DNA from: Tannerella sp.
GTDB lineage: Bacteria; Bacteroidota; Bacteroidia; Bacteroidales; Tannerellaceae
NCBI GenBank assembly: GCA_031272155.1
Contig: JAISUI010000041.1
Coordinates: 1 to 42,258, forward strand
Reading direction: 5' to 3'
DNA: 42,258 bases
In this document: one piece after another, positions 41,697-42,164 of the stretch
How the letters are laid out: every line of letters starts with the position of its first letter
Position numbering within the stretch: position 1 is the stretch's first letter
Made by a program: the position numbers and the translations under genes
Notes under the pieces: model-generated
The model's input: the letters and a program-made list of their open reading frames with translations, nothing else
Databases searched by the model: none
Told to the model about the DNA's origin: nothing

Positions 41697-42164
41697 ATGA
41701 ACCGGAAAATGAACATTCAAAAAACTGCTGCAGGCGTGAAAAATTTAAAGTTTTTTATGCCCTATAATTTGTTTGTTCTCAATATTTTGTTACTCTCTCT
41801 CTCTCTCTCTCTCTCTCTCTCTCTCTCTCTCTCTCTCTCTCTCTTATATATTAATGTATATCCGCAAGCGTGCACGCGTAATTTATCCACGGGCGCGTCA
41901 ATATATAAAATCTCCTTTATCCATGCAAGATTTCTGCCAATCATTTTCAATCTAAGAAATGGCGGAAAATCCTCCCGATTTCACATTGAAATATATAAAT
42001 CATTATATGTAAATACCTTAATTGTATTATTAATCATTTTAAAATTTTTATTATGGAACAACAAAGTTATTTTAAAAGAAAGGAGTGCAGATTACACAGA
42101 TTGCTATGCCTGCTGTGTATCCTGTGCATGGGAACGCTTACGGCCTTCGGGCAAAAGCGTGTGA
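41697..42164 (+). other. Leader reading frame crossing the (CT)26 tract
   Basis: From the ATG at 41697 (MNRKMNIQKTAAGVKNLKFF) a frame stays open for 155 codons, through the CT tract as a Leu-Ser repeat, and stops at 42162-42164, 112 bases past the receptor start in another frame. With one CT unit more it would stop at about 41955. With one fewer it would stop at 41852-41854. The peptide after the tract does not look like a conserved protein. It may be a regulatory leader frame or merely open by chance. Confidence 0.3.
41793..41844. repeat. Perfect (CT)26 dinucleotide microsatellite
   Basis: Fifty-two bases of uninterrupted CT (26 units) lie between the promoter at 41587-41617 and the SusC-type start at 42053. 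Such long perfect dinucleotide tracts are rare in bacteria and are prone to slippage. The length given by one assembly may not be the only one in the population. The remaining 41483-42052 gap is AT-rich, with a perfect palindrome GCGTGCACGC at 41868-41877 and no other gene that I can support. Confidence 0.97.

Follow-up and report, generated by a model that had tools for sequence, protein, structure and literature searches.

A candidate phase-variable leader-ORF switch ahead of a SusC-type gene in Tannerella sp., with similar dinucleotide-repeat leaders in other Bacteroidales

Introduction

Control of surface-structure genes by a leader open reading frame (ORF) whose length depends on a repeat has been described for the pil1 and pil3 loci of Streptococcus gallolyticus. 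According to the excerpts of that report consulted here (PMC3894217), the short pil1 leader ends 39 bp before a terminator in low expressers and a longer leader disrupts the terminator in high expressers; the gap between stop and terminator is 33 bp at pil3, and expression from the pil attenuators is low when the stop lies at least 28 nt before the terminator. DNA inversions at the SusC/SusD genes of Bacteroides are named in the consulted part of a phase-variation review (PMC11868660). The subject of this study is a stretch of 42,258 nucleotides from Tannerella sp. (assembly GCA_031272155.1, contig JAISUI010000041.1), referred to as the window, in which a (CT)26 repeat lies within a putative leader ORF ahead of a SusC-type outer-membrane receptor gene.

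From comparison of this locus with others of its kind, the repeat and its leader probably constitute a phase-variable switch, with the number of repeat units setting where leader translation would end relative to the receptor gene. The window is the entire contig C122 of a metagenome-assembled genome (MAG) of 2.13 Mb in 133 contigs that is 69.6% complete. This genome is denoted G000, and we take the source isolates to be termite-gut MAGs.

The repeat and leader ORF of the window

The (CT)26 tract, which the initial annotation had described as perfect, is uninterrupted over its 52 nt and is the sole dinucleotide array reported across the window. Equally sound were its calls of an exact consensus promoter upstream and a SusC-type start downstream of the tract. 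The promoter motif, TTTG-N19-TATCTTTG, which is of the Bacteroidetes promoter type, matches exactly at a distance of about 175 nt from the tract. The tract itself sits within the leader ORF, between this motif and the SusC ATG at 42053 (Table 1). As predicted, the leader consists of 32 codons, a (Leu-Ser)n stretch read from the repeat, and the spacer, and at 26 units it overlaps the SusC gene by 112 nt. By motif evidence, a promoter is present upstream of the leader and none between the leader and the gene.

Each dinucleotide unit that is added or lost shifts the reading frame, and the phase of the repeat determines where the predicted leader ends. For n, n+1 and n+2 units, with n the assembled number, the stops lie at offsets of +317, +108 and +7 after the tract, giving a long, a middle and a short phase. 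As assembled, the window leader is in the long phase and ends inside the SusC gene. Since the SusC frame carries several stops between the tract and the ATG, no repeat number fuses the leader to SusC in the window, and a fusion switch was rejected for this locus.

The receptor gene is truncated by the contig end and its 68 residues gave a weak CarboxypepD_reg-like match (23.9 bits against a cut-off of 32.2). It is nonetheless identified as SusC because a C42 paralogue, which shares 84% identity with 700 nt of this stretch, was found by domain scan to encode plug and TonB-barrel domains with a SusD gene downstream.

An Rfam search of 41400-42258 returned 0 matches up to E=1. Inverted repeats that might flank the promoter were limited to short, AT-rich pairs of 11-16 nt in 41300-42258; an invertase was not searched for.

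Table 1. Features of the repeat locus in the window (all on the forward strand).
Feature	Position	Strand	Remarks
Bacteroidetes -33/-7 promoter motif	41587..41617	+	exact motif match
Leader ORF, assembled phase (26 units)	41697..42164	+	ATG 41697, stop 42162-42164; putative translation
Hairpin with U-rich tail	41733..41761	+	inside leader ORF, before repeat; same place in other CT-type leaders
(CT)26 repeat	41793..41844	+	52 nt, 100% matches, uninterrupted
Spacer, tract to SusC start	41845..42052	+	208 nt; open in assembled phase, closed in SusC frame
TAA ending leader at 25 or 28 units (short phase)	41852..41854	+	just after tract
GC-rich hairpin-prone stretch	41864..41899	+	after tract; not a canonical terminator
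TAA ending leader at 24 or 27 units (middle phase)	41953..41955	+	mid-spacer
SusC-type outer-membrane receptor gene	42053..42258	+	ATG 42053; truncated by contig end

A set of repeat-bearing leaders in the same genome

While the initial annotation presented a single candidate locus, and that locus is real, its scope was too narrow: the tract belongs to a genome-wide set that is also found in relatives. Pattern scans of G000 identified at least 15 separate tracts of at least 7 units, the window's included, on contigs C5, C14, C17, C30, C42, C45, C51, C56, C77, C89, C102, C105 (two), C120 and C122. The tracts on C14 and C102 meet a contig edge, where shorter tracts could be missed by the scans. 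Judged by N-termini, the downstream gene is SusC-type in 11 of the 15 (C5, C14, C17, C30, C42, C56, C77, C89, C102, one of the C105 tracts and C122), and a plug domain was detected in nine of these, the full domain scan having been run for C42 only; the genome holds 33 plug-domain matches in total. The remaining tracts precede an extracytoplasmic function (ECF) sigma factor followed by FecR (C45), a Sel1/WG-repeat protein (one C105 tract), a protein with a sub-threshold match to a secretion tail (C120) and a protein with an FGE-sulfatase domain (C51). Ten of the 12 own loci examined have a motif that resembles the window promoter on the upstream side of the tract, a count that omits C77, where 84 nt of upstream sequence place the leader start outside the contig. 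In 12 own loci, of which the window locus is one, no -7 motif was found within the spacer.

The phases of these leaders are not arranged at random. All 13 tested loci of G000 have a phase that stops no more than 25 nt upstream of the downstream start codon, or past it, when dinucleotide shuffles of the spacers give an expectation of 1.44. C14 and C102, which lack an upstream side, are outside the phase tests and inside the sets of 15 own spacers used for folding, reverse-complement and terminator analyses. By a strict criterion, 20 of 34 curated rows from the genus reach the gene against 2.9 expected, in a list where C30 is counted twice and five rows without a leader were skipped; if 25 nt are allowed, the gene start is reached in 14 of the 20 genus rows from outside G000. 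The openness of the spacers is specific to strand, with 15/15 open in the forward direction and 2/15 in the reverse complement for G000, and 10/14 and 0/14, respectively, for G173, a genome of another family that is described below. When similar spacers from both genomes were clustered, 10.8 of 13 clusters reached the gene and 1.2 were expected. In most cases the open frame differs from that of the downstream gene, and ATGA overlaps occur at C42, C45 and C120.

The paralogue on C79 (locus L204, G000:C79:4300-6300, gene start 550) has the same promoter and SusC start and is devoid of the leader ORF, the repeat and part of the spacer. Because the same promoter is joined there to the same SusC start without the module, the sequences suggest that the leader module is an add-on to SusC genes.

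The design in another family

The genome G173 belongs to a different family and is assembled as a single contig of 4.3 Mb. It contains 14 loci in which AG tracts follow leaders of 26-29 codons, mostly 27. A phase that reaches the gene is present at 10 of the 14, compared with an expectation of 0.14, and at eight loci the long-phase stop is -5 to -23 nt from the gene start. The assembled phase is the short one at 13 of the 14, where 8.7 would be expected. A -7 motif falls within the spacer at one of the 14 loci.

Terminator-like sites were identified in 13 of the 14 G173 spacers when 1.3 were expected. The first hairpin has a 7-bp stem followed by a U-rich run, and 70 of 70 pair cells are kept in an alignment of the ten loci (of 14) that have a 7-4-7 hairpin. 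Three of these ten show a double change from G-C to A-U; the number of double-change pairs (one) is not above the shuffle control, while the covariation score is above it and is reached by 1 of 500 shuffles. The position of the stops was compared with that of the hairpins at 12 of the 14 G173 loci (not L144 and L154) and at four genus loci. In 11 of the 12 G173 loci entered, the short-phase stop lies 24-49 nt before the first hairpin, which the long phase passes. The exception is L149, where only a later hairpin was found and the short stop is at least 230 nt before it. In the genus, strong terminator-like stems stand between the short stop and the gene at L080, L139, L142 and L092, all from members other than G000. 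The mean folding z-score was -1.4 for the 15 own spacers and -2.7 for the 14 spacers of G173.

Ten G173 spacers (L145, L146, L148-L150, L152, L153 and L155-L157) contain, ahead of the gene and about 215-273 nt beyond the tract, a second hairpin (14-16 bp) that has a T-rich tail. In G000, the spacer after the C51 tract (L068) contains a very stable hairpin (z -6.95) formed from repeated GTGATGCTATCA-like units. The hairpin inside the leader core has a conserved 3' arm and a 5' arm that is in different registers in G000 and G028, the latter a genome of the genus considered next. It was entertained as a part of the phase switch and set aside, as a connection to phase was not found.

Distribution and assembled phase in relatives

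A (CT)7 boundary pattern matched 24 of 41 genomes of the genus, with 30 matches in G028 alone, and a (CT)9 pattern matched 27 of 198 sampled genomes of the order, own genome included. A pattern scan of named genomes returned 14 stretches, ten from Tannerella sp. and one each from a Tannerellaceae bacterium, Candidatus Symbiothrix, an uncultured Rikenellaceae and Bacteroidaceae; several of the Tannerella sp. stretches are identical to loci of the same-genus genomes.

The G028 leaders, 28 in number, have repeat numbers of 12 to 34. In 25 of the 28 the assembled phase is one of immediate stop, with the stop codon within 8 nt of the tract, when 9.0 were expected; four tracts without a usable leader are left out of this count. 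The promoter motif is upstream of the tract in 25 of 28 G028 rows. By eye, the next ORF often encodes a small protein (MFY...), with SusC-type-looking ORFs behind it in some loci. At L107, L110, L115, L117 and L133 of this genome, the leader is followed by a member of a family of 231-239 residues (MFYTRINKIKVFNNREGFLGLF...) that is shorter at other loci; a Pfam scan of one 235-residue member next to a G028 leader found no family match.

Nine other genomes (G196, G185, G091, G209, G143, G129, G113, G126 and G155) contributed 26 loci, L158-L183, which were judged by eye. At L168, L172, L178 and L182 at least, one phase ends no more than 25 nt before the downstream start or past it. Compound tracts, in which an AG run continues as a TG run, were seen at L168 and L178, which are from other families.

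Proposed mechanism and alternatives

The arrangement of the window locus can be read as follows. Transcription would start at the -33/-7 promoter, and ribosomes would translate the 32 leader codons and then the repeat as (Leu-Ser)n. Gain or loss of CT units by slippage would change the reading frame of ribosomes as they exit the repeat. With 25 or 28 units, ribosomes would stop just past the repeat and leave about 200 nt of RNA uncovered, so that SusC would be silenced, most likely by premature transcription termination that may be intrinsic in G173 and may depend on Rho or weak hairpins in the window; loading of Rho on the exposed CU repeat is offered as a suggestion only. With the 26 units of the assembly, the whole spacer would be translated to an end inside SusC, termination would be blocked and SusC expressed. 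Translation of the leader, slippage of the repeat and silencing by way of termination are all inferred. The assignment of the short phase to OFF and the long phase to ON is made because of the analogy with the pil1 layout and, given the rest of the model, is likely to be correct for the long phase.

The initial annotation had proposed a phase-variable SusC locus that differs from invertible promoters. Phase variation is supported by the comparative design, with 13/13 own loci and 25/28 G028 leaders as its main elements, and not by length variation: among the fetched loci there were no orthologous alleles that differ in repeat number, all matches being copies of loci within the same genome. The mechanism implied by the annotation is refined: the repeat lies in a leader ORF, which the annotation had not noted, and is predicted to act through the frame of that ORF.

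Several observations weigh against this interpretation. In the window, a canonical intrinsic terminator was looked for between the tract and SusC and not found, and the first 80 nt of the spacer fold no better than shuffles (z -0.22). Of 15 own spacers just 5 have terminator-like sites, against an expectation of 1.4, and for G028 the count is 3 of 15 spacers where 2.1 were expected. In six of the 20 genus rows outside G000 every phase ends more than 25 nt short of the gene start, four of the 14 G173 loci lack a phase that reaches the gene, and only 8 of those 14 carry the promoter motif. Most of the 26 loci from the nine other genomes do not show the design, or have a gene or leader that cannot be judged by eye. 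The phase tests assume independence and the spacers of paralogues are not fully independent. Finally, the sequences are MAG consensus, and the assembled phase in G000 has no significant bias, with 6 of 13 loci short and 4.0 expected.

The sign of the switch could be the opposite, with the short phase ON through SusC's own AT-rich start and the long phase OFF as leader ribosomes overrun that start out of frame or make a fusion. The loci assembled in the short phase, 25/28 in G028 and 13/14 in G173, would then be mostly ON, C79 demonstrates a SusC start that stands without any leader, and the long phase overshoots the gene start by more than 100 nt at C122, C5, C17, C51 and one of the C105 loci. 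We nevertheless regard this as unlikely, since long-phase stops are often at a distance suited to coupling, as in the ATGA overlaps of three own loci and the eight G173 loci noted above, and since the hairpins of G173 come after the short stop and before the gene as in pil1, where the short leader goes with low expression.

A second alternative is that the leader peptide is itself the product, a small hydrophobic protein whose stop is kept after a merely tolerated repeat, without any switch. The immediate stop in G028 fits this idea, as does the constant length of 32 codons before the tract in most of the CT-type leaders listed; rows with equal flanks were removed when the leaders were compiled. 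There is also mild constraint at the protein level: the ratio of nonsynonymous to synonymous substitution (dN/dS) was 0.55 across 21 leaders of G028, 0.77 for seven from G000 and 0.86 for a further six. These values make a weak case for a conserved peptide as the purpose of the leader, and at L053 and L085 the conserved core is read in another frame with the leaders still open. The tails differ as well, for the repeat reads as (Leu-Ser)n in some leaders and (Arg-Glu)n in others, and AG tracts follow leaders of a different kind, which have about 26 codons in several members of the genus. A second phase that is open to the next gene start is not predicted by this explanation, which we regard as improbable.

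It is less probable still that tract length alters promoter strength or mRNA stability, or that the lengths are neutral or an artefact of assembly. Several tracts do lie near contig ends; however, the window tract is far downstream of the promoter motif, the G028 phase bias is not expected from neutral or mis-assembled lengths, and G173 displays the design on its single contig. Ordinary coding-frame phase variation, in which the leader ATG would be the SusC start and slippage would set the frame, finds support at C30 and C89, where the repeat is in the gene's own open frame and the leader is fused to SusC at the assembled repeat number, but is hardly credible in general given the stops that preclude fusion in the window, open frames that seldom match the frame of the gene, and a C79 paralogue that retains the same SusC start without a leader.

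Returning to the leader-ORF switch, we are inclined, by a narrow balance, to a broader proposal: that Bacteroidales carry banks of leader ORFs with dinucleotide repeats, which arose on two or more occasions with dissimilar leader peptides and repeats on opposite strands and which serve as contingency switches for receptors, ECF sigma factors and secreted proteins. If so, each switch would have one phase of immediate stop and another in which ribosomes are brought as far as the gene start, and a clone could generate very many surface states without recombinases. The state of a switch could be read from the genome as the repeat number modulo three. The parts of the literature examined present phase variation in Bacteroidales as a matter of DNA inversion; a bank based on slippage would give these bacteria a second route to variety in nutrient uptake and surface targets. 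It would also mean that the pil1 mechanism, which in the literature searched appears in one streptococcus only, operates genome-wide in another phylum. G173, with one contig and terminator-like hairpins in nearly all spacers, makes the mechanism testable.

The mutS2-type gene at 39020-41482 (MutS_V and Smr domains) is directly upstream of the locus, and a functional link is not claimed. Among the matches listed, those in relatives cover the mutS2 end of the query, with matches to its leader or SusC portion lying on different contigs.

Comparison with known systems

As in the Bacteroides SusC/SusD inversions (PMC11868660), the candidate switch concerns phase variation of SusC-type proteins in Bacteroidales. 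The variable element differs, being the repeat of a leader ORF, and the only inverted repeats at the window are the AT-rich pairs of 11-16 nt. The terms leader peptide, attenuation, terminator and dinucleotide are absent from the consulted portion of that 2025 review, and a report of repeat-bearing leader ORFs in Bacteroidales was not recognised among the open-licence literature matches listed.

In Helicobacter pylori oipA, a coding-frame simple sequence repeat (SSR) system (PMC10564699), a CT repeat likewise occupies the 5' region of a gene for an outer-membrane protein. At the window, the repeat is instead in a separate upstream ORF and not in the gene's own open frame, and no phase permits a fusion of that ORF with SusC.

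The closest likeness is to pil1 and pil3 (PMC3894217). The window locus would work like a pil1-type attenuator and is not classed as one because an intrinsic terminator between the short stop and the gene is missing from it. Further differences from the pil loci are the host (Bacteroidales as opposed to Gram-positive), the repeat unit (dinucleotides as opposed to GCAGA), the number of loci (15 to about 30 per genome as opposed to two), a long phase that ends at the gene start, and the nature of the evidence, which here comes from sequence alone. What is shared is a promoter, a leader ORF with a short repeat that is not a multiple of three, and genes for surface structures downstream. Also shared is one phase that stops before a hairpin while others give a longer leader, the hairpin in the present case being that of G173. 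Its gap of 24-49 nt between short stop and hairpin, in 11 of the 12 loci entered, compares with 39 and 33 bp at pil1 and pil3.
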